64,000 nucleotides of DNA, taken from assembly GCF_000189775.2 (NCBI RefSeq), contig NC_015555.1, positions 1,809,001-1,873,000 on the forward strand, in the 5' to 3' direction. The notes under the pieces were generated by a model. That model ran no database searches and was not told the origin of the DNA. It was given only the letters and a program-made list of their open reading frames with translations. Both the position numbers and the translations under genes were made by a program. This document shows positions 6,269-23,033 of this stretch, in pieces. Numbering within the stretch: the stretch's first letter is position 1; each line of letters starts with the position of its first letter. Source of the DNA: Thermoanaerobacterium xylanolyticum LX-11 (GTDB taxonomy: Bacteria; Bacillota; Thermoanaerobacteria; Thermoanaerobacterales; Thermoanaerobacteraceae).

Positions 6269-6772
6269 TCACTCCTCTATCATGATAGATTGCATGTCTT
6301 CTATAAACTGTGCTACATCCTTTCTTAAATTATCAACAGTATGGGGGAAAATATCTAGTAATCTTTCTATGCGTTCTGATACTAGGTTAAATCCATAAAC
6401 ATTACGAAATACATGACGAAATCCTCTAAATTCATTAAGCAAAAACTTTGAATTAGAACTAATAAAAGCCGGCCTTTCTCCTTCTATAGGAGTCGACATT
6501 TGTTCAAGTAATTCTAGATGCCATTCAGAACTTGAAGGGATCAAATTATCTATATTTCTACCCACAATTTTAAACATATTCTCAACGGAAGTATAAAAAT
6601 CGTGAAAAATAGAGCCAACAGCCCTTAGCATGAAATCATCAGCCAATTTCTCTCTTCTGTTTTTACTATCTAATAAGCCTCTCTCATTTAAAGTATCATA
6701 TAATTTTTGTATATTCTCAAGTTCTAACTGTAGTCTTGCTAATGTAACTTTAATTTTATTAATATCCGTCAC
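6269..6772 (-). CDS. HepT-like HEPN toxin (partner of MntA-like antitoxin)
   Basis: The 167-residue protein is mostly helical. Around residue 118 it contains FRGFRHVFRNVYGF, matching the RH-FR-YG signature of HepT-like HEPN proteins paired with nucleotidyltransferases. HEPN toxins are RNases silenced when the partner adds AMP to the tyrosine near the motif; here the candidate is the Y of NVYGF. It overlaps the nucleotidyltransferase stop by 4 bp, the standard type VII toxin-antitoxin order. It marks the left edge of the defence island. No catalytic test is possible from sequence. Confidence 0.75.
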   Translation of the reverse strand: MTDINKIKVTLARLQLELENIQKLYDTLNERGLLDSKNRREKLADDFMLRAVGSIFHDFYTSVENMFKIVGRNIDNLIPSSSEWHLELLEQMSTPIEGERPAFISSNSKFLLNEFRGFRHVFRNVYGFNLVSERIERLLDIFPHTVDNLRKDVAQFIEDMQSIMIEE

Positions 6773-7146
6773 TCTATAATCCTCCCTTCTCTTAATATTT
6801 CATTTAGCAGAGATTTATAAGCTTCTTTTTGCGTAACTATGCTTATTTTATAAGGCTTTGCAACATTTTCAACATCAATCAACATTGTCCAATAGTTAAA
6901 TTTACTATCATCCCATCCATCAATAAAAATATCAATATCAGATAGATTATCAAAACGGTCATCTCTTGCAAGTGAACCATACAATATAACCTTATCAACA
7001 AAATACTTTTCTTTTAATATCTTTGCAATTTTATATACTCTATCAAAAGCTTCTTTTTTTCTATACGTTTCTATTTCTCTATCTTTCTTGACTTTTATAC
7101 GCCATGTTTCACGTATATTTTTTCTCTCTTGATCCGAAAGCGGCAC
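6769..7146 (-). CDS. MntA-like nucleotidyltransferase antitoxin
   Basis: The 125-residue protein is a minimal nucleotidyltransferase (Pol-beta fold). The catalytic motif is YGSLARDDRFDNLSDIDIFI at about residues 56-75, with GS and the paired Asp of SDID. Proteins of this kind AMPylate and silence HepT toxins. The start is a GTG with AGGTGGTGA just upstream. The charged helical N-terminus (about 45 residues) is longer than in minimal MntA. Its 4-bp overlap with the HEPN gene indicates translational coupling. Confidence 0.78.
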   Translation of the reverse strand: MPLSDQERKNIRETWRIKVKKDREIETYRKKEAFDRVYKIAKILKEKYFVDKVILYGSLARDDRFDNLSDIDIFIDGWDDSKFNYWTMLIDVENVAKPYKISIVTQKEAYKSLLNEILREGRIIE

Positions 7147-7429
7147 AATATCACCACCTAAAATTTATACGGCTTAATTTTATCATTTTACATCAAAATA
7201 ATCAATTCACTTAAAATATATAATAAACCATAAATTTAACGCGTATGATAATAAAAATTTATAGAAACCATAACAGGAACTTATATGTACAATATCTTTT
7301 AGTTGTTTCAAAGCTTACATAAGCTGAATTTTCACCATACTTGCATTCACAATAGAATAGTAGTATCATTATGTTGTACCCCATCATAGAGGGGTGGGTA
7401 TGTTTTATTTCATTTTTAGGAGTGATAGT

Positions 7430-7810
7430 ATGGCTATAGGTGTTAAATTAGTTAACAAGGAAGAGGCAAGCCCAGAAGTAAAGCAAATATTTGAACAAAT
7501 AGAAAAGCAGATGGGATTTGTTCCTCCAACAATGCGGGCAATGGCAAATAAGCCAGAATATTTAAAACTATTTCTTCAGAAATCTCAAGTGGCAATGGGC
7601 CCAGGGAAAATCGACTCTAAAACAAAACTTTTTGTCGCTTTAACTGTGTCAATTTTAAACAATTGTGAAATGTGCATAACCGCATACACCAAAAAATTAA
7701 AAGAAGCAGGCGTAACCGATGAAGAAATAGTTGAGCTTCTATCAGTTATCGATCTGATGAGCGGTTTAAACCACTTCAACAATGGGCTTATGATAAAACC
7801 AACCGAATAA
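7430..7810 (+). CDS. Carboxymuconolactone decarboxylase/AhpD-like protein
   Basis: The 126-residue protein matches the CMD/AhpD helical fold. It carries the redox-type motif NNCEMCITAYT (about residue 80); the usual histidine that follows the CxxC in AhpD is replaced here by tyrosine. AhpD-like proteins act in peroxide detoxification or as small decarboxylases, and this divergence leaves the reaction open. The ATG at 7430 is chosen because AGGAGTGATAGT precedes it; an upstream GTG at 7394 has no such site. It is one of few plus-strand genes and converges on the YdcF-like gene across a shared terminator. Confidence 0.72.
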   Translation: MAIGVKLVNKEEASPEVKQIFEQIEKQMGFVPPTMRAMANKPEYLKLFLQKSQVAMGPGKIDSKTKLFVALTVSILNNCEMCITAYTKKLKEAGVTDEEIVELLSVIDLMSGLNHFNNGLMIKPTE

Positions 7811-7828
7811 ATAAAGTGCGCTTTCACC

Positions 7829-7869
7829 AAAAAGGCTTTCCTTCTCCTATGACAAAAGGAAAGCCTTTT
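7829..7869. terminator. Bidirectional intrinsic terminator between convergent genes
   Basis: AAAAAGGCTTTCCTT and AAGGAAAGCCTTTT form a long stem with A/T runs on both sides, so it can serve the plus-strand AhpD-like gene and the minus-strand YdcF-like gene. Confidence 0.85.
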
Positions 7870-8455
7870 AATCTATTAGCATTCTAAAATACATATACAA
7901 TAATGCAGGTGCTTCCCGTAAAAAGCCGTATACTTCTTCATAAAAATACCTTTTTACAAATACTCCTGAATAGCTTGCATTTATTCCTGCTTCTTTCGCA
8001 ATTATGCTTGCCCTTTTCAGGTGAAATTTGTTTGATACAATTATTGCTGTCTTTAGCGATTTTTCATCCATAATTTTCTTAGAATTTTCAAGGTTTTGCA
8101 ATGTTGAATACGACTTATCGTCTTTTAATATAGTATTATAAGGTATACCATTTTTCAAAAGATATTCCTTCCCTGCTTCTGCCTCAGATACATCCTCACC
8201 AGGTCCTTTACCGCCAGATACAATAATGTACTTACCAAGTCCCTTTTTATAAAGCCTTATAGCTTCATTTAACCTTTCCTTAAAAAAAGGACTCGGATTT
8301 TTTCCGTAAACTGCACAGCCGAGGATAATAATGGCATCAGATTTCACCGGTTTTGCATTATATGCAAATATGATCACCTGTAACTCTGCTATGATATTTA
8401 AAAGCACGACAAAAGTTATTAGCGATGCAGTAATTTTTATAAGAAGTTTCATCAT
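7868..8455 (-). CDS. YdcF/SanA-family (DUF218) membrane-anchored protein
   Basis: The protein is about 195 residues. One N-terminal transmembrane helix (about residues 5-28) is followed by a DUF218 domain, recognised by AIIILGCAVYGKNPSPFFKER, the GKGPGEDVSEAEAG loop and the later IIVSNKFHLKRA motif. SanA/YdcF-type proteins sit at the cell envelope and have been linked to vancomycin resistance and SAM binding, but the biochemical role is unclear. The start is uncertain among the adjacent ATG codons at 8455 and 8452, preceded by GGGGG. Confidence 0.78.
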   Translation of the reverse strand: MMKLLIKITASLITFVVLLNIIAELQVIIFAYNAKPVKSDAIIILGCAVYGKNPSPFFKERLNEAIRLYKKGLGKYIIVSGGKGPGEDVSEAEAGKEYLLKNGIPYNTILKDDKSYSTLQNLENSKKIMDEKSLKTAIIVSNKFHLKRASIIAKEAGINASYSGVFVKRYFYEEVYGFLREAPALLYMYFRMLID

Positions 8456-8636
8456 AACCCCCAAAATTTCTTTTAATTTAATAGAATTCTATATTGAATT
8501 TAAAAATCCCTAAAAAGTGGCTCTTGGAGCAATTATTAATTGCCTTAAACTAATTATCATAAAATGTACGTACTTATTCCTTTTTCTATTCCCTTCTTTC
8601 ATGTTTTTAACTTCTTCTATTCACATCAAACATCAT

Positions 8637-10718
8637 TTATCTTTTTATGTATTTTTTTATTGTGCTAATAAAAGAATTTCTTGGTTTAATTCCTATATAA
8701 TTATAGAATATATCACCATTTAATAACAATATCTGACTATCTTCTTTAACACACCCGATACCTAAATAATTTACAATGTTTTCTCTTTCACGCGGATTAT
8801 TAAAAATAATCGATGTATTTACATATATTGTACCATCATCTTTTTCTATAAAAGCATCCCTATTATTTTCATAGATGTTCTTCCATATCTCTTTGCCTCT
8901 TTCCTCATAATCATAAAATGGTTGATGTGGAAACCATTCAGGTACATTCATTCCACATTCTTTATAATATTCTTTAAAGATTTCTCTCGCCAAAAATAAA
9001 CAGTCATTTTCTTTATAAAGAATCTCCTCATTTTTGATTTTTTCTGCAATTCTATAAGAGAAATCTTTAAATAATGAATTGTCAATTTCAGACTCTATTT
9101 CATTTAGATATTTTTTAGATTCTGCATTAAATTCTTTAGTATTAAATTCGCTGTCAACCTGTATATAATATATTCTTCTCAAAACTTGACTTGTGGTATT
9201 AAATTCTCTTACATTTGTTGTCCCTATCATTACAGGGTGTTTCCCAGTTGTATTATTGCTAATTTCCTTAATAATATTTTCACCAGTTTTCCCAGTAAAA
9301 AATGAAGAGGGAATTTCATCTACAAGAATAGGTGCAAGATATTCAGAGTCAAAGTAGCTTTCTAATTTATTTTTATCGACTGTTCTTCCGCTTTGTATTA
9401 AACTATAAGGTATATAATATGGGCTGTTATTGCCAAGCAATAGACCTATAAATTCTAATGCTGTTGTTTTGCCAGAAGCAGCCCTTCCTGCAATAACTAA
9501 AAATACCGGAAAAGTAGATCTATTGCTTTCTGAACTTGTTTTTAGGACAATTTCTTCTCTCAACTTCCAGATATAAGGCGACATAAATGAGAATAAAATT
9601 ATCTCCATTATTTTGGACTGATATGTCTTGTTTGTTTTAAAAGTAAATAATTCATAGGCATTTACAAAGCGATTGATTAATTCAAGGTTTTTTCTTATAT
9701 TCTCTATATCAATTTTTTCTGAAAATGGTTTATAAAATTCATGATTGTTTTTATCAACAACAGAAAGAGTATTTGTTTTATCCATGAATCTATAAAATTG
9801 CCTAACATCATCTGTGATATTTTTAGAAGCTTTTAATATAATAGTTTCAATTTGCAAAGTTTGCTTTTTTAGCTCATCGGGAGGTTTTAAGATATAATTA
9901 TTTCCCTTCTTTTTCGTAATATGATTTATTATATTGGTTGACCTTTGAATCTCTTCTTTTTTTACTTCATAATGTTCTTCTAATTGTTGGGATCGGGATT
10001 TTAGTTCAGCCATTTGTTCATCTGTCAATACACAAAATTTATTGCGATTTATCTCTAAATCATTATTTAATATTTCTGTTGCTACCTCTTTGCTAAACAA
10101 TATTACAGAAGGATTCTTTAGATATTTTTTTCTTATTATGTCAGGAATATAATTAACTCCCGCTTCAAACAATGGTTTAAACCTCTGATTATAATATAAA
10201 TCGTACTTTTCTACGTCATTATCAAATATAATGATATCTTCATACTGCTTTTTATTAATAAAAGCTTTTTCTGTAAGATTTGCAGAACCAATCACCACTC
10301 TCTTAAAGCCTGTTTCGCTGTTATTTAGAAGATAAATTTTCGAGTGAATGGGAGCATCTAAGGTAAATCTGATAGAAATACTTTCATCACAAATTTTTTC
10401 TTTAACTTCTTTCTGTAAGTCGTTCCAAAAGTCTATTCTTCCTTTGATATCAACGAATTTTTCTATACCACTTGTAAATGACGATAAATATTCTGAATCA
10501 TCAATGCCAATTATAAATTTGACTTTTTTAAAGTCTTTAACGACTTTTGAAAAGAAAGCGGGTGAAGAAACATAAGTTACAGCATAGAATTCGTTGAAAG
10601 TATTTGTATCAAATATATCTTCAAATGTCATATCAACAATTTTGTCATCTTTAACAACACATAAATATTTTTTTGTTGGATTATCATCGATTTGTTCAAG
10701 CAAACTTATCTGCTCCAT
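8637..10718 (-). CDS. Phospholipase D-like nuclease fused to AAA-type ATPase; candidate defence protein
   Basis: The 693-residue protein has two recognisable parts. Residues 45-190 look like one phospholipase-D-family catalytic half, with H125-S-K127 and GSANLTE at 144-150 (HxK...GS pattern); one HKD motif implies a dimeric active site, as in Nuc-type nucleases. After a coiled linker (about 235-345), residues 400-600 form an ATPase with P-loop GRAASGKTT (411-419), Walker B ILVDEIP (464-470), a sensor stretch MIGTTNVREF and LRRIYYI as a possible arginine finger. I do not recognise a named family with this architecture. It follows a GNAT gene by 16 bp and sits next to McrBC. A DNA-targeting defence role is inferred. 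Confidence 0.65.
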   Translation of the reverse strand: MEQISLLEQIDDNPTKKYLCVVKDDKIVDMTFEDIFDTNTFNEFYAVTYVSSPAFFSKVVKDFKKVKFIIGIDDSEYLSSFTSGIEKFVDIKGRIDFWNDLQKEVKEKICDESISIRFTLDAPIHSKIYLLNNSETGFKRVVIGSANLTEKAFINKKQYEDIIIFDNDVEKYDLYYNQRFKPLFEAGVNYIPDIIRKKYLKNPSVILFSKEVATEILNNDLEINRNKFCVLTDEQMAELKSRSQQLEEHYEVKKEEIQRSTNIINHITKKKGNNYILKPPDELKKQTLQIETIILKASKNITDDVRQFYRFMDKTNTLSVVDKNNHEFYKPFSEKIDIENIRKNLELINRFVNAYELFTFKTNKTYQSKIMEIILFSFMSPYIWKLREEIVLKTSSESNRSTFPVFLVIAGRAASGKTTALEFIGLLLGNNSPYYIPYSLIQSGRTVDKNKLESYFDSEYLAPILVDEIPSSFFTGKTGENIIKEISNNTTGKHPVMIGTTNVREFNTTSQVLRRIYYIQVDSEFNTKEFNAESKKYLNEIESEIDNSLFKDFSYRIAEKIKNEEILYKENDCLFLAREIFKEYYKECGMNVPEWFPHQPFYDYEERGKEIWKNIYENNRDAFIEKDDGTIYVNTSIIFNNPRERENIVNYLGIGCVKEDSQILLLNGDIFYNYIGIKPRNSFISTIKKYIKR

Positions 10719-10734
10719 GGCGGCGCCTTCCTTT

Positions 10735-11211
10735 TCAAATCTTCAATTCCATTCTTCTATTTCTTGTCGTCATACCTAAACTTTCATAAAACTTTATCGC
10801 ATCGCTGTTAAATTCCCACACAGTTAATTCTAGCGCATCATAACCTGATTTTTTTGCATAATCAACAATATGTTTAAATAGCATTTTCCCCATGCCTTTT
10901 CTTCTATGAGTGGAACTAACACATAAATCATCTATATAGACAAATTTTCTCTCTTTAAGAATTGGAACATTTCTCGTAGTTATTATTTCTACAATGCTGT
11001 AAGCTATTATTTCATTATTGCAATCTTCAGCCACAAAAACTTTCGTTTTATCGTCATTTAATATCTCCTTAAATCTTTCTTCCGTAAATGGATTCTCCAC
11101 GTCTACATACACATCCGGCCTATTTTTAACATGTAAACTATGTACTTCTTTAACAAGAGTACTTATAGATTTATAATCATTAAATAATGCTTCTCTTATT
11201 TTTATGTTCAC
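10735..11211 (-). CDS. GNAT-family N-acetyltransferase
   Basis: The 158-residue protein has the GNAT fold: N-terminal IKIREALFNDYKSI, the acetyl-CoA loop RRKGMGKMLFKHIV (about residue 105) and the C-terminal ELTVWEFNSDAIKFYESLGM. The GTG at 11209-11211 is chosen as start because AGGTGA lies 7 bp before it. The target is unknown. It is immediately upstream (16 bp) of the PLD-ATPase on the same strand, so the two are probably co-transcribed. That could make it a modifier or immunity partner, or merely a passenger. Confidence 0.8.
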   Translation of the reverse strand: MNIKIREALFNDYKSISTLVKEVHSLHVKNRPDVYVDVENPFTEERFKEILNDDKTKVFVAEDCNNEIIAYSIVEIITTRNVPILKERKFVYIDDLCVSSTHRRKGMGKMLFKHIVDYAKKSGYDALELTVWEFNSDAIKFYESLGMTTRNRRMELKI

Positions 11212-11553
11212 TATACAATCACCTGGATTTATATTATAATTATAGGGCATTCCATTTTTATACCAACTAATATTAGTTTCTTTACAAGATTTGCCTAATA
11301 TAATAAACACTCCATATTTGTAACCTGATCTGTTAGCTCGGTATATTCTTAATACCGTATTATACTTTAACTTACATTTTTATCTTTTCTAGCATCATCA
11401 CATGTAGTATTAGTGAATAGCTTTAATATTAAAATAACATTTTGTAACAAAAAGTCAAGAAAATAGTTATTTATACCTGTACTGTGCTAACTAAAAGTAA
11501 TTCATTATTTTTGCAATCTTTTCTGCTTCGTTATGGTTCCAGATAGTAAATGT

Positions 11554-12828
11554 TCAACTCCAAACAACTTCATCGATATAATTCATCAATTCATACCTTC
11601 TACTTTCATCAGTAATTAACTCTGCAATTTTAATAAGATTTACTGGTTGTAAGATTATACTTGCTATTTTTGAACCTGAAACAGGATCATTAATGTCAAT
11701 CTTTTGTATAGTAGGAATATCACTTGTGGCTGGATAAAGTATTGTTGAAGCCTTATTTCCAATACCACTTACCGCATAAACCGATAACTGATATAACATC
11801 TCCCGTGGCAAGTCGTCATGCCATAAATCTCTATACTTGGCATCTATTAACTTTATTACCTTACCATGCTTGACAATTGCAAAGTCTGGCCTCGGTGTTG
11901 GAGACTTTTTTAGGCGTGGGTTAAACTCTGCAACATATGTAAACATATCATGCAAGCTATACTGACATTTCACAGAAAAACCTCCGCCAAAATCTTCTAA
12001 TAATCGTCCTATCAATGTTTCAAAAAATGCATTCATATCGAAAAAATATCCATTAAGGTCAATTGAACTTAAACCATCCTCTAACTGTATCCCTTGTGAT
12101 TCATACAAGATCTTTATTATTCTAAGTATAGAGGAATATCTTTCTGTCAGTCTATTAATACTATTCCAAGCACGGTTCAAGCTAGTTCGCGTAAGAATAA
12201 TATCGCATACATTTTCTTTAAGATAAGAAATCAATCTTTGAAGGCTAAATTTTAATCCATCATCCATTACCAGCTTCAACCCGAGTCTTAAACCAGAAAG
12301 TAAAATCTGATTAAGTATATTGTCTTCATCTCTAGCAAAGTATCTACACGGCAATGTATCCCTTATTAGTTCACCTTGAGCACAAAGCTTATTCATATCA
12401 ATTCTGCCTCTTGGCGATGACAAACATTCTTCTTCCTTTATATAGCTTTTTTGAAGTCCTCTTTGAATCAAATCTTCTGCCTCAACATAAAGTTCATAAA
12501 TAAGCAAATCAAAAAAAGAAAAATTACCTATGTTATGCTCTCCGGTATTAAATAACTTTAGATCTCTAAGTCCATATGCATATCTTAGAAGCTGATACAA
12601 TGGTAGCCCCTTTATCTTAGGATAAACATTAATCTGTAAATCCCCAAGTTTAACTCTTCCAACATATGAATTACTCTTGATTGATAGGCCACCTCTAATC
12701 TCTATAATTTCTAATATTCCCTTGCCCGTAAGAACTTTTGCTAAATTGCGAGCATTGCTATCCGATAATTCTATACCATCCAAAACTATGCTGTCCCACT
12801 CTTTTAAACTGATTGTCTTGGCCATCAT
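11554..12828 (-). CDS. mcrC: McrC-family nuclease subunit of McrBC-type restriction system
   Basis: McrC supplies the PD-(D/E)XK cleavage domain and activates the McrB GTPase. The 424-residue protein has the N-terminal McrC region (VGRVKLGDLQINVYPKIKG) and a C-terminal catalytic core, PRPDFAIVKHGKVIKLIDAKY, with the D...DAK residues in place. It overlaps mcrB by 4 bp, and the start may be either of two adjacent ATG codons. McrBC cuts DNA carrying modified cytosines, which restricts modified phage DNA or foreign methylation. Confidence 0.9.
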   Translation of the reverse strand: MMAKTISLKEWDSIVLDGIELSDSNARNLAKVLTGKGILEIIEIRGGLSIKSNSYVGRVKLGDLQINVYPKIKGLPLYQLLRYAYGLRDLKLFNTGEHNIGNFSFFDLLIYELYVEAEDLIQRGLQKSYIKEEECLSSPRGRIDMNKLCAQGELIRDTLPCRYFARDEDNILNQILLSGLRLGLKLVMDDGLKFSLQRLISYLKENVCDIILTRTSLNRAWNSINRLTERYSSILRIIKILYESQGIQLEDGLSSIDLNGYFFDMNAFFETLIGRLLEDFGGGFSVKCQYSLHDMFTYVAEFNPRLKKSPTPRPDFAIVKHGKVIKLIDAKYRDLWHDDLPREMLYQLSVYAVSGIGNKASTILYPATSDIPTIQKIDINDPVSGSKIASIILQPVNLIKIAELITDESRRYELMNYIDEVVWS

Positions 12829-15104
12829 GATTCCTCGCTATTATTTTGATTATCTTCACTGTCATTATCTTCATCTGCTATATCATCATTGGTTGTCTCC
12901 ACGCCTATGCGAATATCAGGACATGGTGATAGTAATGCTGTTACTAAATCAGAAATATCCGGTGTATCAAATAATTCATATCTAATCGTCTGATTTTTTA
13001 CATCTACAATACTTTCACCTAAAATTTTAGAAATCAATTCATAATCACCATAACAATATTCTTCAATAAGCGGAATAATATCTTCTTTTATAATTCTTTT
13101 AAACTTCTCATTATCTATAATGGGTTTTTCCTTCTCTAAAAAATATGAATGGCCGATTTGCAGATTGCAAGCATCTTTGCCAAGGTTCTCACATATTCTA
13201 CTATTTAATTCCTTTAGCCATTCTGCAAGTGGTAAACCTTCAAATGCCACACCATCAAACAGACTATAATCTGGCATTAATTCTATGAAGCCAAATCGTC
13301 TGCGAAGTGCAACATCTAAAAGAGCAATCGAACGATCCGCTGTATTCATCGTACCTACAATATACACATTGTCTGGCACTTTGAAAGATTCATTTGAAAG
13401 TGGAAGTATAACCTCTTTGCCGCGCTTTCCCACTTCAATAAGTGTAATGAGTTCTCCGAAAATACGTGATATATCTCCGCGATTTATCTCATCAATAATC
13501 AAATAAAAGTTTTTATCTGAATTTTCCATTGCATCTTTGCATATTCTCTTAAATATCCCATCTTTTAATTCAAATACCGTTTGATTATTTACAATCCTTG
13601 GTTTAATTCCTTCTATAAAATCTTCATATCCATATGATGGATGAAAACAGCACATGCGAACATAACCATTTGTCGTACTGTCACCCAATATCAAAGCTTT
13701 TTCATTCTGTGAAAGTGAATCATAAGGCTTGTGAAATAGACTTCTTGCAGCAAATTCACTGCAAGCTTTTTCAGCATAGTATGTTTTCCCTGTTCCAGGA
13801 GGTCCATATAAAATGACTTGTTTCTTGCGCGCTAGTACACCTTCTATTTCTGCAACTGTACCCGTAAGAGGTTTTAATATAGGCTTAATCATAATTTCAT
13901 CGCTTTCTTCATTCATCAATCTTCTAATTTCGAAAATGTTATTAATATCTCTATATTGGAAACAGGCAGTTAGTTTCCCAGTGCTAGTTTTTGGTAAATG
14001 AACAGGTTCTTTAAATATTTTTACCCATTCGACATTTCTACAATGTGAATAAGGTCTATCTTTTACATATTCATAATTCCCAACAACTTTACCTATTCCT
14101 AGTACTTTCTCACCAAGTACTGCTACTACAACATCTCCAATTTCAATATCTCTGTAAAATCTTATGATTTCTCCAACTTTTCTACTTGCTACATTATTAT
14201 CATATCCATAAAGTTTTTTAAGTTCCTGAGCAATATCCTCTTTAATGCTCTTACTTTCATCATATGAAGTCAAATTACCCAGTTTTGCCCAGCCTATGCC
14301 TACATATGAATTTGACTTCATATCCTCCCAATAGCTATTGCCATTATCACCTGTGCCAATCCTAAAATAGTTTACAGGCGGTCCAAACAATACACACATT
14401 GAATTCATTACATAACTTGTAGGTAATCCTGTCTTTTTTGTGATTTGCATTAATTGCCCAGACAACGTATAAAGTTTATCATCTTGCACTGGCTTTATAT
14501 TGCAGCAAATAAGGGCATGTACTTGCCATCTTGTAGAATGAAAGGCATCTATTTTATTTGGATACAGCATATGATAGTACTTATGCACCCATCCAAGTTT
14601 TTGCTTATTATAAACTAATGTGTTACTTAATTGTTCCTGTAGTTTTATATAGTCTTCTATACTTGCATCATCTGAAAGTTTATCAATCAAATTTGCTCCA
14701 GCAACTAAAGCATCTCTTATTTTTCTGCCAAGTTCAACCGCTTTATCAATGGATAAAATAGTAGGATTCTGAGGGTTACCTGTGACCCATTTGCCGTCAG
14801 AGCTTCTTTTAAACATGATAAACTTATATGAACTACCACCGGAAATGCTGCCATAACTATTAGAATTAGTTTTAAATTCATCATCGTTTTTGAATTCCAG
14901 CCAATAACTTAATCCATCTTTATTACCAATATTAAAGATAGTATCTATCAAAAGTTCACCATCTAAACTTTTTAATCTCTCAGGGCTGAATTTTTCTTTA
15001 AATATATTATACCCCTGATTTAATTGTTCAAGAGGCAATAGTTTTTTATCTGTCAGGAGTTTGTCACAAGTCTTCTTTATTTCCTCTAGTACATGATCAT
15101 CCAC
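12825..15104 (-). CDS. mcrB: McrB-family AAA+ GTPase with N-terminal DNA-reading region and EVE-like domain
   Basis: The 759-residue protein carries the McrB motor at the C-terminus: Walker A GPPGTGKT (434-441), LIIDEINRGDISRIFGELI (Walker B), GTMNTADRSIALLD (the McrB-specific MNxxD region) and ALRRRFGF. Upstream, residues 256-365 read like an EVE/PUA-type modified-base reader (VGIGWAKLG ... IEIGDVVVAVLG ... GIGKVVGNYEY). The first 250 residues are probably another targeting domain. The long N-terminus may set specificity for a modified base; this is inferred from fold-like motifs only. It is co-transcribed with mcrC, which starts within its last codons. Confidence 0.88.
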   Translation of the reverse strand: MDDHVLEEIKKTCDKLLTDKKLLPLEQLNQGYNIFKEKFSPERLKSLDGELLIDTIFNIGNKDGLSYWLEFKNDDEFKTNSNSYGSISGGSSYKFIMFKRSSDGKWVTGNPQNPTILSIDKAVELGRKIRDALVAGANLIDKLSDDASIEDYIKLQEQLSNTLVYNKQKLGWVHKYYHMLYPNKIDAFHSTRWQVHALICCNIKPVQDDKLYTLSGQLMQITKKTGLPTSYVMNSMCVLFGPPVNYFRIGTGDNGNSYWEDMKSNSYVGIGWAKLGNLTSYDESKSIKEDIAQELKKLYGYDNNVASRKVGEIIRFYRDIEIGDVVVAVLGEKVLGIGKVVGNYEYVKDRPYSHCRNVEWVKIFKEPVHLPKTSTGKLTACFQYRDINNIFEIRRLMNEESDEIMIKPILKPLTGTVAEIEGVLARKKQVILYGPPGTGKTYYAEKACSEFAARSLFHKPYDSLSQNEKALILGDSTTNGYVRMCCFHPSYGYEDFIEGIKPRIVNNQTVFELKDGIFKRICKDAMENSDKNFYLIIDEINRGDISRIFGELITLIEVGKRGKEVILPLSNESFKVPDNVYIVGTMNTADRSIALLDVALRRRFGFIELMPDYSLFDGVAFEGLPLAEWLKELNSRICENLGKDACNLQIGHSYFLEKEKPIIDNEKFKRIIKEDIIPLIEEYCYGDYELISKILGESIVDVKNQTIRYELFDTPDISDLVTALLSPCPDIRIGVETTNDDIADEDNDSEDNQNNSEES

Positions 15105-17485: not shown

Positions 17486-19621
17486 CTATAGCCTGATTTC
17501 TCGAATACAATAGCAATTTAGAAAGTCGAGTACACCTTTAATATCAACATAATGTGCTTCATGCATTTTAATCTGTAATTCTTTAGGAAGAAGCGGGCTA
17601 TATTTTGACGCAAAAAACTCGTTGTCCATTATATAAGGTATCAAATCACTCATAAACCAATCTTTGTGTCGAATCTCCTTTAATATTTCTATTAAATCAA
17701 TATTGTCCAAAATAGAGATACGCCCAATACCATCAGTCTTGTCTACATTAACACCATAATAACGAAGCATCCAAATTAGCGTTTGAAAAATGTTGGTCCC
17801 GGTAAATGTTTCAAATAATAGTTCACCATCCATCCTCCATATTATTCTCTCATCTGGTCTTACTTTATAATGACAATAAGGCGCACGCAACTCTTCTAAA
17901 GTATAGCGACCATCATTATTGATAAAATCAAATATATAATCTGAACATAATATCTTATGCATATGTTCAGGAATTCTTCGGTGCAATCGCACACCCCCAC
18001 CTGAATAATTAGGTGGATGCCCGTCCACTGCTTTCTGCACATATACCTTGCTGCGTTTAGCATCTACTTCTTTGATCGTCCACAATCGCCCAGCAAGGAT
18101 AATGTTATCTCCTTCATTTACGAATGGCGTTTTTTGAATTTCCCCAATTTTTTTAATTCCATCTAATACTTCATACGAATCTTCAGTCATAAAAACAGAA
18201 TAAAAATCTTTTCCTCTAAGCAGTCGTTCCCCTTCTAATCCGACAATCAACTGGCCTGTATCACTAAGTTGTTCCAAATAATCTTGCTTAACCATATGTT
18301 CAATTAACAAACAAATATCTGTTTCCGGTAAATCATAAAATGCACCATTGCGTTTCAACAATGTAATTAAATCTTCTGGTGCAACGCCGTTCATTTGGTG
18401 GCATATTGAAATAATTTGATGAAACAGAATATCATAAGGGCGCGAATAACCTTTACTCGGCTCTATCCACTTTTGTAATAATAAATCCATCACTGCAATA
18501 GATTGTAATAACCCGTACTTATCTGCTGTATATAATTGCAAATACTGATCTTTACCATGTTTTCTGCCTGACCTTCCTAACCTTTGTTTTAAGGATGAAA
18601 CAGTAAAGGTACTATCCACTTGAATAACAAAATCTATTTCTCCAATATCAATTCCTAGCTCCAATGAGCTGGTTGCTACGATACTTTTAGGTAGAGTAGA
18701 TTTAGCCATCATCTTCTCAACAAATTCACGTTCCGCTTTAGCAATCGAAGAATGGTGTGCGTAGTACACCTGCCCTATTCCATCTCGTTCAGCCAAACGA
18801 TTTAAAATAACTGTTGCCTCTTCAACAGCACCTCGGCTATTAAAAAAAATTAAGGCAGAATGATTACGGGTCAATTCCCGGATATCTTCATAAAGTTCGA
18901 TAGGATAACTCTTCATTTTCTCACTGTCAAAATGCATCAAATTATAATAAAGATCTTTGTCATTTTCTCTTACTTCGATAATTTCAACGTTATCTGGGTC
19001 TCGGTAATTAACCCAGTTCTTAACTAACTCAAAATTATCAATTGTTGCCGATAACCCAATAATACGTGGTCGATCTTTGGTAAAACATTCAATGCGAGAC
19101 AATAATGAACGTAACTGAACTCCACGTTCTGTATCAATAAAAACATGAATTTCATCAATCACAATAAATTGAAGATACTGAAATAACAAAGGCAGTGCAT
19201 AAGTACGATTTATAAACAAGCTTTCAATAGACTCAGGTGTGATTTGCAATATACCAGCAGGATTATCAATAAACTTCTTTTTACTATATTGACTAACATC
19301 ACCGTGCCAACGATGAACTGGAATATACATTTGATCACATAATTTTTGAATGCGTTCAAATTGATCATTAATCAACGCCTTCAATGGTGATATATAAAGA
19401 ACTTTAAGTGTATAAGGCGCTGTTTCTTCAATTTGGCTAAGAATAGGCAGAAATGCTGCTTCTGTTTTCCCAGAAGCTGTAGCTGACGAAAGAATCACGT
19501 CCTTTTGCGTATTCATAATAACCGGAATTGCTTTCTCTTGAATAGATGTAAATCTTGTCCAACCCATATCCCATATTTTCTTTTGCACAGTATTAGATAA
19601 CATATAAAATATCTGGCTCAT
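17486..19621 (-). CDS. sngC: Lhr-like DEAD/DEAH helicase, Shango SngC
   Basis: The 711-residue superfamily 2 helicase has Walker A ATASGKTEAAFLP (about residue 48), motif II VIDEIHVF (about 153), SATID (motif III) and motif VI QRLGRSGRKHG (about 363), followed by an Lhr-type C-terminal region. It is the last gene of a TerB protein - BrxD-like ATPase - helicase set, which is the composition of the Shango anti-phage system (SngA, SngB, SngC). It lies 73 bp downstream of the ATPase with GAGGGGG before its ATG. The same helicase type occurs in BREX type 2 as BrxHI, but no other BREX genes are present. Confidence 0.82.
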   Translation of the reverse strand: MSQIFYMLSNTVQKKIWDMGWTRFTSIQEKAIPVIMNTQKDVILSSATASGKTEAAFLPILSQIEETAPYTLKVLYISPLKALINDQFERIQKLCDQMYIPVHRWHGDVSQYSKKKFIDNPAGILQITPESIESLFINRTYALPLLFQYLQFIVIDEIHVFIDTERGVQLRSLLSRIECFTKDRPRIIGLSATIDNFELVKNWVNYRDPDNVEIIEVRENDKDLYYNLMHFDSEKMKSYPIELYEDIRELTRNHSALIFFNSRGAVEEATVILNRLAERDGIGQVYYAHHSSIAKAEREFVEKMMAKSTLPKSIVATSSLELGIDIGEIDFVIQVDSTFTVSSLKQRLGRSGRKHGKDQYLQLYTADKYGLLQSIAVMDLLLQKWIEPSKGYSRPYDILFHQIISICHQMNGVAPEDLITLLKRNGAFYDLPETDICLLIEHMVKQDYLEQLSDTGQLIVGLEGERLLRGKDFYSVFMTEDSYEVLDGIKKIGEIQKTPFVNEGDNIILAGRLWTIKEVDAKRSKVYVQKAVDGHPPNYSGGGVRLHRRIPEHMHKILCSDYIFDFINNDGRYTLEELRAPYCHYKVRPDERIIWRMDGELLFETFTGTNIFQTLIWMLRYYGVNVDKTDGIGRISILDNIDLIEILKEIRHKDWFMSDLIPYIMDNEFFASKYSPLLPKELQIKMHEAHYVDIKGVLDFLNCYCIREIRL

Positions 19622-19694
19622 TTTATCCCCCTCGGTATCACATCATAAACGGCGTATTCACCGTATCATTCACATGTAAAAACACTTTACATCA

Positions 19695-21026
19695 CTAAAA
19701 ATTACCACGTTGAAAGCGATCATGTATATTAACCACTTTTCGATCCAGCTTATCATCTTGTGGTGTTTCATTAGAAACACCAAATAATTCCTTCCGATCT
19801 GTCATCGGATTTTCAATAAGAATATTTAAACTACTGATAAACTGTCGAATAACGTCCCCCAAGATGATGTGCTTTTCAGCACCCGATCGTTCATAAAAAT
19901 TAATCAAAAAATCACGAATCTCTTCGTCCGTTACCGTTGGTTCATAGCCGTAATGAGCTGCGTGTATATCGCGGATATTCATTAATAAAACCAGAGTTTC
20001 ATTAGGAGTAATTGGCATTAATCTAATTACCGGTTGCTTTAAATCACGGTATTCATCGCTTTGAACACCTGGTTTTAACCTACGTTCCAATGCTTTATAG
20101 CTGTAAAGTCCCCTGCGTTCATCTTCCAAAAACTCAGGTGTACCGCTGAAGGTAATATATAAACCTTCAACCGCTCCTTGTAAAATATCATTATATATCA
20201 TTAAAATATACTCATAATTTTTCTCTCTTGCTTCTCGGTGCGTAATTTTATATAAATTAACTGCCTCATCTAAATTAATGATTAATCCTGAATATCCTAT
20301 TTGGCGTACAAATTTCGATAGCACCTTCAAATATCCATAATAATTGTTGTCATTGATAATTTCGCGAATTCCTAAATCACGAATAGCATCGGTTTTTGCC
20401 AGGTACTCCCCTCGTATCCATCTCAAAGCACGGCGTTGCTTTTCCCTGTCTTGCTCTACAAAACCCCGATAATAAATGCCTAATACATTTGCAAAATCAT
20501 ATCCCCCCGTTAACTCATCCAAGTGTGAAACAACATCAATAATTTCTTTTTCAACTGCTTGAATAAAGGTAGGATCATTCAAAATAGGCCGGTCATAGCC
20601 CAATTTTTGTACCACCTGATTTTGAATATTTGTTATCCACTGGTCCAAAATCGCCGGTAAAGCATTACCCTGTGGAACTGATTTAGTAGATAAGTTCCTC
20701 ATTAGCTCGCTGTACAAAGCAACAGCTTGGTTATCATTTCCGTATAATCTCCTATGTGGAGTAAAATCAGCTTTTGCAACGACAAACCCTTCATCAAGAC
20801 CTATCTGACGAACAAAATTTTGCATAAAGCTTTTGCCAGTTCCGTATGCTCCAATAAAAAATTTAATTAACGAACTTCCATTTTCCTTAATATCATTTAG
20901 ATCCTCTTTTATTTGTCTCATTTCAGCTTCACGACCAACTATTATATATTGAAGGCCTCGACTGGGAACTACCCCACCAGCTAATGCATTTAAAATATCT
21001 GCTGAATCACGCCTTTTAATTTTCAT
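19695..21026 (-). CDS. sngB: BrxD-like P-loop ATPase, Shango SngB
   Basis: The 443-residue protein begins with a short basic stretch, then has Walker A GAYGTGKSFMQN (about residue 63) and Walker B GLIINLDEAVNLYK (about 245), with FSGTPEFLEDERRGLYSYKALERRL as a likely sensor region. This is the DUF2791/BrxD family of ATP-binding proteins found in BREX and Shango. It overlaps the upstream TerB-domain gene by 4 bp (ATGA), so the two are translationally coupled. Assignment rests on family pattern plus gene order. Confidence 0.82.
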   Translation of the reverse strand: MKIKRRDSADILNALAGGVVPSRGLQYIIVGREAEMRQIKEDLNDIKENGSSLIKFFIGAYGTGKSFMQNFVRQIGLDEGFVVAKADFTPHRRLYGNDNQAVALYSELMRNLSTKSVPQGNALPAILDQWITNIQNQVVQKLGYDRPILNDPTFIQAVEKEIIDVVSHLDELTGGYDFANVLGIYYRGFVEQDREKQRRALRWIRGEYLAKTDAIRDLGIREIINDNNYYGYLKVLSKFVRQIGYSGLIINLDEAVNLYKITHREAREKNYEYILMIYNDILQGAVEGLYITFSGTPEFLEDERRGLYSYKALERRLKPGVQSDEYRDLKQPVIRLMPITPNETLVLLMNIRDIHAAHYGYEPTVTDEEIRDFLINFYERSGAEKHIILGDVIRQFISSLNILIENPMTDRKELFGVSNETPQDDKLDRKVVNIHDRFQRGNF

Positions 21027-22960
21027 ATTGTTTTACTCCTCTCTATTTCCTCCAATACACATACTAATTCTTCGTTTATCACATAATCATCGCCTATCTG
21101 TTCAATAAACACATCATCTAAGTATTCCTCTGCTTTTGTATTGATTTCGTTAATAAAAACCGCAGCGGGAATTCCTTTATCTCTTATCTCATCATTCACC
21201 ACGTCGATTCTTCTCCTTTTGCTAGAAAATGTGCTAATAAATTTAATTTCTTCTTCCGTTAATGAGGAAAGAAATCCTTCGACATCCACATCATCGTCAC
21301 TCAGTGTAATTGTCGGCCGCTCGGGAATGTCAAGTTTTGTTTTCTCCACATTAGACATTGGTTTAATTTCTCTCTCTGTACTTTTATCCTCATCCTGTTC
21401 ATCGCTGGAAAACTCTGAAAGAAAAGCCTGATGCCTTCGTTTCAATACTTCAACTTGTTTACCGTCCAATTCTGTTATCCAGGATTTGTTAGAATCATTA
21501 TTAGCTGTTTTTGTTTCTAATGTTTCATTGGGCTTTGGAGGAATTCGGCTCCCCTTCTCCTCAATTTTATCTGTTACAACATGCGAAAAACGACTTTTGA
21601 TTCCTACATCTTCATCAATTTCATATACTTTTTTGTTTTTCATCTCTTCTAATAAACGTTTTTTGAAACCAGGAGGAAGTAACTCTTCATTTGCTTGGAT
21701 TTGTCTCTTAACACCGTTACACAACCGAGTAACATTTTCAGAAATACGAAATAAAGCAGTGATCTCGTTATAAAAATATTCTGTCGGTACGTATTCCGTA
21801 TATTCAATAACTCGGCTTCCAACATTTCGACCAATCACTGCACTTTTAAACAAATAGTACGTTGCCGTTTTTTTCTTTTGTTCTAACCAAGCCTTTTCTA
21901 AATCGAACCCTTCTTCAATGTTTATTTTTTGGAATAATTTTAATGCCTCCTTAAATGTAGCATAAACCTTTTGTTTGTTCATTTCGAAAAAGTTGGTTTC
22001 TGAATATCCTCTAATAACTTTTTGCCACTCTTTAATAGGTATTGGGCCAATATCTTTTTCGTGGTCTTTAAATATTTGATAAAAATTCGTCTGATAATAA
22101 GGTTCAGCTCCTAATCCCCATTTACGAGCCAGCTCAACTTCATTTAACTCAATTAACATATCTCTAATCCACTCTGAAAGATATCTGTCCAAGTTGGGAA
22201 TTCTTTCTTTATATGCCTGTTGTAAACGAACCATCATACTGACATTAAATGCTGCATTTTGATTAAAAGTATAATTGATCAATTCATAAACAAATAAAAT
22301 CACATAGCTTAAATCTGTATCCAAATAATTCCCTTTTAACGTCTGGTGTCTCCAATAAAAATACCATTTCTTTTGTTTTTCATCGAGATCTCGAAATGTC
22401 GTCCAATGAACTTGCAAAGGAACAAATTCAGTTTTAACACCCATTTGATTAGCATATTTAATCGAATCTTCCATGAAATAAGTCTCATGAGTATGAAAAG
22501 ATATTTCGATGACCGGTCTGTTCAGATCTTTATGCTTAAATGATTTTTTAATTTGCTGAATTTCTTCTTTGATGTAAGAAGGTGTCTTGAGATGTGCATA
22601 TTCTGGCAAAATAATTTCTTCTTCCCTATAAAACATCATTTCGTTTTCTCTATCTGATAAAACTGATTTTTCAGATTCGACTTCCTCGGGTCTGGTTTTC
22701 TCCACTCGTGAAGTAATTGATTGAAGTGGCTTTTCCTGCAAAGATTCCGGAGAGTTCTTATGGCTTTCGAGATATTGCTGATGCCATTTATGAATAAAAA
22801 ACATGTCTATCCATCCCAATAATATAGGAATACCTGTCCAACTAAATGCCAAATAAAGAATACCCCTTAAATACTTACCATAATAAAAAAGGTGAGCACC
22901 TAAACCACCAAAAAAGAGCGCTAAAATATAACCAACTGTTTTTGATTTGCCCCGCTTCAC
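21023..22960 (-). CDS. sngA: TM2 + TerB-N/TerB-C protein, Shango SngA
   Basis: The protein is about 645 residues from the GTG at 22958-22960, which follows AAAGGAGG by 9 bp; upstream in-frame starts lack a site. Residues about 5-55 form a TM2 domain (TVGYILALFFGGLGAHLFYYG ... GIPILLGWIDMFF), placing the protein at the membrane. A TerB-N region follows (about 130-330; KWYFYWRHQTLKGNYLDTD). The C-terminus (LTEEEIKFISTFSSKRRRID ... INEELVCVLEEIE) looks like TerB-C. Between them is a charged, probably disordered linker (about 440-560). A TerB protein heading a BrxD-like ATPase and a helicase is the Shango layout. The TM2 anchor is notable. Confidence 0.8.
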   Translation of the reverse strand: MKRGKSKTVGYILALFFGGLGAHLFYYGKYLRGILYLAFSWTGIPILLGWIDMFFIHKWHQQYLESHKNSPESLQEKPLQSITSRVEKTRPEEVESEKSVLSDRENEMMFYREEEIILPEYAHLKTPSYIKEEIQQIKKSFKHKDLNRPVIEISFHTHETYFMEDSIKYANQMGVKTEFVPLQVHWTTFRDLDEKQKKWYFYWRHQTLKGNYLDTDLSYVILFVYELINYTFNQNAAFNVSMMVRLQQAYKERIPNLDRYLSEWIRDMLIELNEVELARKWGLGAEPYYQTNFYQIFKDHEKDIGPIPIKEWQKVIRGYSETNFFEMNKQKVYATFKEALKLFQKINIEEGFDLEKAWLEQKKKTATYYLFKSAVIGRNVGSRVIEYTEYVPTEYFYNEITALFRISENVTRLCNGVKRQIQANEELLPPGFKKRLLEEMKNKKVYEIDEDVGIKSRFSHVVTDKIEEKGSRIPPKPNETLETKTANNDSNKSWITELDGKQVEVLKRRHQAFLSEFSSDEQDEDKSTEREIKPMSNVEKTKLDIPERPTITLSDDDVDVEGFLSSLTEEEIKFISTFSSKRRRIDVVNDEIRDKGIPAAVFINEINTKAEEYLDDVFIEQIGDDYVINEELVCVLEEIERSKTI

Positions 22961-23033
22961 AAAATTGTTCCTCCTTTTCCTAAAAAACAATACATATAGC
23001 AAAAATATTTCGATATATTTCGCTAAAAATATA

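Follow-up and report, generated by a model that had tools for sequence, protein, structure and literature searches.

The gene considered here lies on the - strand of a 64,000-nt stretch of the genome of Thermoanaerobacterium xylanolyticum LX-11, referred to below as the window, and its 693-aa product belongs, judged by its sequence, to a bacterial branch of the AgaP family that stands alone, without Argonaute. AgaP is the PLD partner of a haloarchaeal long-A Argonaute in the APAP system of Natrinema pellirubrum (PMC11442185). Like AgaP, the window protein joins a single-HKD PLD half to an AAA+ ATPase and ends in an amphipathic basic tail, and we infer nuclease activity, ring formation, membrane binding and a role in defence for it. 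The reading that we prefer, and to which we give about as much credence as doubt, is of a one-gene AgaP-family defence in which a membrane-moored PLD DNase, gated by its AAA+ part, acts against incoming DNA. The features on which the argument turns are as follows.

8637..10718, - strand: PLD-AAA+ protein, 693 aa (ORF; 20-member alignment; AlphaFold model).
10158..10664, - strand: N-terminal single-HKD PLD nuclease domain, approximately residues 19-187 (Pfam RE_NgoFVII/PLDc_2; fold matches).
10278..10346, - strand: HxK-x16-GSxN catalytic motif, H125, K127, G144, S145 and N147 (invariant or nearly so in alignments; spacing measured).
8844..9815, - strand: AAA+ ATPase region of the Cch/SaPI Rep/MCM group, approximately residues 302-625 (domain model and fold matches).
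9465..9488, - strand: Walker A, GRAASGKT, residues 411-418 (alignments).
9315..9329, - strand: Walker B, ILVDE, residues 464-468 (alignments).
9174..9176, - strand: R515, a conserved arginine at the arginine finger position (invariant in both alignments; retained in divergent subfamilies).
8640..8675, - strand: putative membrane-targeting tail, an amphipathic basic helix, residues 682-693, ending FISTIKKYIKR (helix in models; family tail statistics).
8622..10733, no strand: presence/absence cassette holding the PLD-AAA+ gene alone (breakpoints relative to G015, G017 and G019; identity to G021).
10735..11211, - strand: GNAT acetyltransferase, a resident neighbour outside the system (Pfam Acetyltransf_1, 2.4e-17; orthologues without the PLD-ATPase).

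The original prediction placed a single-HKD PLD half, a P-loop ATPase and an arginine finger in one chain, and this architecture is correct, because the motif residues are invariant or nearly so and persist in divergent subfamilies. Pfam recognizes a single PLD half (RE_NgoFVII, 2e-7, residues 113-177; PLDc_2, 1.8e-6), and the HKD fold and the catalytic motif are both present, as expected of a member of the PLD (HKD) superfamily. The same scan of the 693-aa protein returned no ATPase family, DUF927 included, and no DEAD, ResIII or Helicase_C domain. H125 is invariant in a nine-member alignment, and the residues of the HxK and GSxN elements are invariant or nearly so both there and in a 20-member alignment; no variation is seen in either alignment at G416-K417, D467 of Walker B, N502 at sensor 1 or R515. 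The PLD and ATPase motifs are retained together in divergent subfamilies, barring a few degenerate copies.

Structure prediction, which had been suggested as a check on this architecture, gave a PLD fold at the N terminus and an AAA+ fold for residues 302-693. With 20 homologues in the alignment, the AlphaFold2 model of the whole chain has a mean pLDDT of 84, and residues 302-693 modeled alone reach a pLDDT of 90 and a pTM of 0.89. The PLD domain is matched by NucT (Z 11.4), the NgoAVII R-protein (Z 11.3), Zucchini (Z 10.1) and BfiI (Z 8.8), and SauUSI and the phosphatidylserine synthase of E. coli are also among the fold matches of the protein. For the ATPase part, SCCmec Cch (Z 13.8, rmsd 7.0 over 310 residues) and SaPIBov1 Rep (Z 13.0, rmsd 8.5 over 293 residues) are clearly better matches than MCM (Z ~10) and BrxL (Z 8.7), and a fold search against viral models returned primase-helicases of the D5/VirE/DUF927 kind, in agreement with the AAA+ assignment. 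MCM and SF3 helicases bear a DNA-contacting β-hairpin just before the sensor-1 strand. In the predicted models of the window protein, no strands are found between the preceding helix (residues 477-489) and the sensor-1 strand (residues 497-501); DNA translocation of the MCM/SF3 type is therefore doubtful, and we withhold the label of helicase. As modeled, the ATPase resembles the AAA+ core of the Cch/SaPI Rep/MCM-like group, apparently without the hairpin that pulls DNA.

The relationship to AgaP extends over the full length of both proteins. A family profile built without haloarchaeal sequences matched residues 25-714 of N. pellirubrum AgaP with 103 bits and an E value of 6e-34 in a one-sequence search, and the catalytic residues H105, K107, G157, S158 and N160 of AgaP align with H125, K127, G144, S145 and N147 of the window protein. 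The residue numbering used in PMC11442185 fits positions 7001-9154 of the N. pellirubrum locus (L080) exactly; in the database record (NC_019963.1; L080 6911-9154), agaP is annotated as a short "hypothetical protein" with two spurious-looking antisense genes, the full ORF being 7001-9154. AgaP also has an AAA+ domain, with GESNGGKG as Walker A and VVVDD as Walker B, and ends in the amphipathic C-terminal tail RGSFLSRARSILKR. The main text of PMC11442185 mentions no ATPase, P-loop or Walker motifs and describes AgaP by its PLD half alone, and further literature on Argonautes and archaeal immunity yielded nothing more on the protein. As far as the literature found shows, the ATPase motor and the putative membrane tail are undescribed parts of the AgaP family.

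Expressed alone, AgaP is toxic through its PLD residues, a toxicity that Argonaute relieves (PMC11442185). Together the two restrict a plasmid, for which the catalytic histidine and lysine of AgaP are required, and a single-stranded DNA virus, for which Argonaute is mainly needed and AgaP helps; the plasmid is removed and viral DNA lowered without abortive infection (PMC11442185). The DNase activity of AgaP is itself deduced, because the authors could not purify the protein (PMC11442185).

The split of some 49 residues within the PLD motif of AgaP has been called "unique" (PMC11442185). The spacing between HxK and GSxN is 16 residues in the window protein and 15 in three Argonaute-linked relatives (L010, L071 and L073), and values of 44-49 occur only in an N. 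pellirubrum-like clade, so that the long split is a trait of one sub-clade and not of all Argonaute-linked members. A Piwi gene immediately precedes the PLD-ATPase gene in Natrinema zhouii, Salinigranum, Natrarchaeobaculum, Halomontanus and N. pellirubrum, and five of the eight haloarchaeal records carry a Piwi gene. Two haloarchaeal plasmids (L072 and L074) encode AgaP relatives without an adjacent Piwi gene, none being found on the whole Haloarcula record; their neighbors include a UvrD helicase, a cassette of a PD-(D/E)XK nuclease and a large helicase, and a ThiF gene, surroundings that are a candidate for a larger defence island. No Piwi domain was detected in 15 bacterial carrier genomes, namely that of the window and 14 others, with a control genome positive. 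The claim that no named defence system has this architecture needs amending: AgaP of APAP belongs to the same full-length family, although the bacterial branch is without Argonaute.

The third part of the protein is its C terminus. In nearly every member, the last residues form a short segment that is both basic and hydrophobic, often preceded by a linker, as in KKGFWARLFG, KKKGFISRLFNR, KKGFFGKIFGGK, SGGFLSRLFGD and, in the window, FISTIKKYIKR. Against a background of 478 neighboring proteins, the tails have a median hydrophobic moment of 0.53 versus 0.22 (nominal p 4e-14, kinship ignored) and a charge of +3 versus 0 (nominal p ~1e-14, kinship likewise ignored), and a simple tail motif occurs in 27 of 41 family members and 27 of the 478 neighbors. 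Hydrophobic periodicity peaks at 100 degrees and exceeds that of shuffled tails (combined p 5e-11, again ignoring kinship). MinD binds the membrane through a C-terminal amphipathic helix of like kind (PMC8155659), and the amphipathic basic tail suggests membrane mooring of the MinD type. The same helix could instead be a docking or ring-assembly element of a cytosolic AAA+-nuclease, a possibility that we regard as doubtful. Amphipathic helices also make protein contacts, the tail is helical in models with a pLDDT of only ~55, and two members (L067 and L068) have atypical C-terminal ends, all of which would suit a docking helix. Mean pairwise tail identity is only 11%, yet charge and amphipathicity are kept and the linkers vary in length, as in MinD-like targeting sequences (PMC8155659), and this speaks for mooring.

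The family is widespread. The PLD-ATPase motifs are conserved in ~50 homologues from bacteria and archaea, often plasmid-borne; among plasmids, tblastn detected family members from Athalassotoga, Arcobacter, lactobacilli, Aquifex, acetic acid bacteria and haloarchaea. An alignment scan of one genome per species located 24 loci in Bacillota, Nitrospirota, Campylobacterota and other groups; a single-sequence scan of genome contigs gave no match. Among 398 genomes of the same phylum, a profile search identified ~11 clear carriers, the window's own genome included. Phage origin was considered and rejected, there being no match in 50,697 phage records or in IMG/VR scans. In the tree, a haloarchaeal clade, a divergent Bacillota clade and a clade holding the window protein can be distinguished.

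Several individual copies deserve mention. Those of Aquifex ece1 (L011), Chryseomicrobium (L064) and L. salivarius (L012) are broken or truncated, which suggests frequent decay, as of costly defence genes. One copy (L019, in G267) has lost the PLD histidine, YPEK replacing HxK, and retains the ATPase motifs. Another (L059, 785-2866) comes from a 3 kb contig assigned by binning to Aenigmatarchaeota and clusters with Nitrospirota sequences, and the contig may be mis-binned. In the divergent Bacillota subfamily (L081, L082, L085 and L086), a gene of ~200 aa follows the PLD-ATPase at -8 to +11 bp, and the two form a conserved two-gene operon; the ~200-aa product is weakly similar to resolvase-N and carries, at its C terminus, a conserved HTH-like motif, FPxxWxExYxxW...GLKRATFYN.

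The abundance of plasmid-borne members, some of them near rep, par, partition or toxin-antitoxin genes, invites the view that the protein is a plasmid-competition or stability factor, a nuclease by which plasmids and islands exclude or destabilize other plasmids, and not an antiviral one. The reported activity of AgaP against plasmids would fit. We consider this unlikely, given that many copies, that of the window among them, lie on chromosomes or large contigs, that no plasmid partner gene is consistent and that AgaP also boosted immunity to a virus (PMC11442185).

As to how a standalone one-gene defence might work, the N-terminal PLD halves of two copies would probably pair, giving a metal-independent DNase of the BfiI/NgoFVII type. 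The AAA+ part would probably form a ring, with ATP binding or hydrolysis gating the nuclease or loading it onto DNA. The C-terminal helix, on its variable linker, would hold the assembly against the cytoplasmic side of the cell membrane, where foreign DNA could be met on entry or replication. In haloarchaea, the machine may be restrained and aimed by Argonaute; in bacteria without Argonaute, sensing of DNA would fall to its own AAA+ and C-terminal parts.

The same three parts could be arranged around a different substrate. If the PLD half attacked a membrane lipid such as cardiolipin, the protein would be a suicide effector whose ATPase senses infection and whose tail brings the enzyme to its substrate. 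Searched against PDB sequences, the family profile indeed matches a mitochondrial cardiolipin hydrolase best (4.6e-5), the fold matches include E. coli phosphatidylserine synthase, and both the amphipathic tail and the toxicity of AgaP alone (PMC11442185) would be accounted for. However, the MitoPLD/Zucchini group is also a nuclease family, the remaining best fold matches (NucT, NgoAVII, BfiI and SauUSI) are nucleases, and AgaP with Argonaute clears plasmid and brings down the amount of viral DNA with no abortive infection (PMC11442185), so that lipid attack seems to us improbable.

At the window locus, a presence/absence cassette that holds only the PLD-ATPase lies next to a GNAT gene. Within the genus, the PLD-ATPase occurs only in the window's genome and in G021; the cassettes of the two are 98.5% identical, whereas their flanks are ~90% identical. 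In a third genome (G017), the DNA flanking the window cassette lies 56 bp apart with no PLD-ATPase between, and in two more (G019 and G015) the site holds ~300 unrelated bases and again no PLD-ATPase. The GNAT gene spans 10735-11310 by its longest ORF, or 10735-11211 with a GTG start near the onset of orthologue homology; its position 16 bp upstream of the PLD-ATPase and in the same direction was confirmed from the ORFs. On these grounds, the two had been proposed to form a system in which acetylation marks a target or protects the host. The proposal is very improbable and the partnership can be discarded: seven genomes of the genus (G014, G015, G016, G017, G019, G020 and G021) have a GNAT orthologue at 85-90% identity and six of them lack the PLD-ATPase, an IS605-type element separates the two genes in G021, and, elsewhere in the family, an annotated GNAT lies within two genes at one of 42 other loci, ~950 bp off on a plasmid and seemingly unlinked. 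The orthologue distribution, the breakpoints at sites lacking the cassette and the GNAT-free homologue loci make the juxtaposition an insertion accident.

The wider surroundings are rich in defence genes. McrC/McrB, predicted beside the PLD-ATPase, were found at 11554-15104, upstream of the GNAT, and PADLOC detected Shango genes at 17486-23002 on the - strand (SngC, 1.6e-213; SngB, 3.2e-156; SngA, 1e-42). The window SngA has TerB domains and an extra N-terminal TM2 domain. At 6269-7146 on the - strand, a HepT-like protein (PF20797) adjoins a nucleotidyltransferase-like ORF, a pair that looks like a toxin-antitoxin of the MntA/HepT type. Another PLD-ATPase copy (L083, 3012-6586) also adjoins McrBC, its McrB being 53% identical to that of the window over 750 aa while the two PLD-ATPases are distant, and other copies adjoin GmrSD and type I RM genes, or a type III methyltransferase and a PD-Lambda-4-like gene. 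Several lone copies stand among housekeeping genes, namely those for the glycyl-tRNA synthetase β subunit, for UbiD and a TPP enzyme, and for a histone deacetylase-like protein, and these count against the reading as a one-gene defence. Because the neighbors are thus mixed, a defence role is supported mainly through AgaP and by context only to a moderate degree. Assignment to a known system in the PADLOC 2023 catalogue was rejected, the PLD-ATPase having no strong match there but only weak ones to mad3 (3e-4) and ZacB (9e-4); the former (18.5 bits) covers the ATPase segment only, and other mad genes were absent among the neighbors scanned.

A broader and more tentative picture, which we think less probable than not, is that the AgaP family, with or without Argonaute, constitutes a widespread membrane-moored AAA+-PLD machine. 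Its ring ATPase would share the ancestry of mobile-element helicases and carry nuclease heads and MinD-type tails, and in bacteria one gene would suffice as a complete defence; in haloarchaea Argonaute would have harnessed the machine, a prokaryotic parallel to membrane-bound Zucchini and Piwi. The published "PLD protein" AgaP would then become a machine of three parts, nuclease, AAA+ motor and membrane tail, which opens a direct test of how it discriminates extrachromosomal from chromosomal DNA; the same machine would occur in bacteria without Argonaute, as a one-gene mobile cassette with no strong match in PADLOC 2023.

With AgaP, the window protein shares the full length, comprising PLD, AAA+ and amphipathic tail, but its ATPase part is only ~21% identical by blastp, and it is bacterial, with no Piwi in its genome. 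With the PLD restriction endonucleases NgoFVII, BfiI and NgoAVII, it shares the N-terminal single-HKD nuclease domain; their DNA-recognition part is replaced by the AAA+ ATPase and tail. SauUSI, PbeA and other HKD enzymes with an SF2 helicase likewise combine a PLD half and an NTPase in one chain, but the motor of the window protein is an AAA+ of the Cch/Rep/MCM group. The replicative helicases SCCmec Cch and SaPI Rep provide the nearest folds to residues 302-693, from which the window protein differs in the seeming absence of the pre-sensor-1 hairpin and of a DUF927 match; neither is known to us to have a PLD domain or a membrane tail. An AAA+ motor is also combined with an HKD nuclease in BrxL proteins with a C-terminal HKD DNase (PMC12839542), although there the HKD domain is C-terminal and not N-terminal, and the fold match is weaker (Z 8.7-8.9). 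No full BREX operon was found around the window PLD-ATPase, and the literature on HKD and AAA+ systems returned only BREX, phosphorothioate and unrelated work. The short basic amphipathic C-terminal helix that defines the membrane-targeting sequence of MinD is present in the window family. Finally, Zucchini/MitoPLD is a single-HKD PLD that resembles the window protein in fold (Z 10.1) and is matched in sequence by the family profile (4.6e-5), a likeness to be read as analogy only. It is membrane-anchored and acts with Piwi proteins in animals, but it has no ATPase, and its anchor is an N-terminal transmembrane segment, not a C-terminal amphipathic tail.
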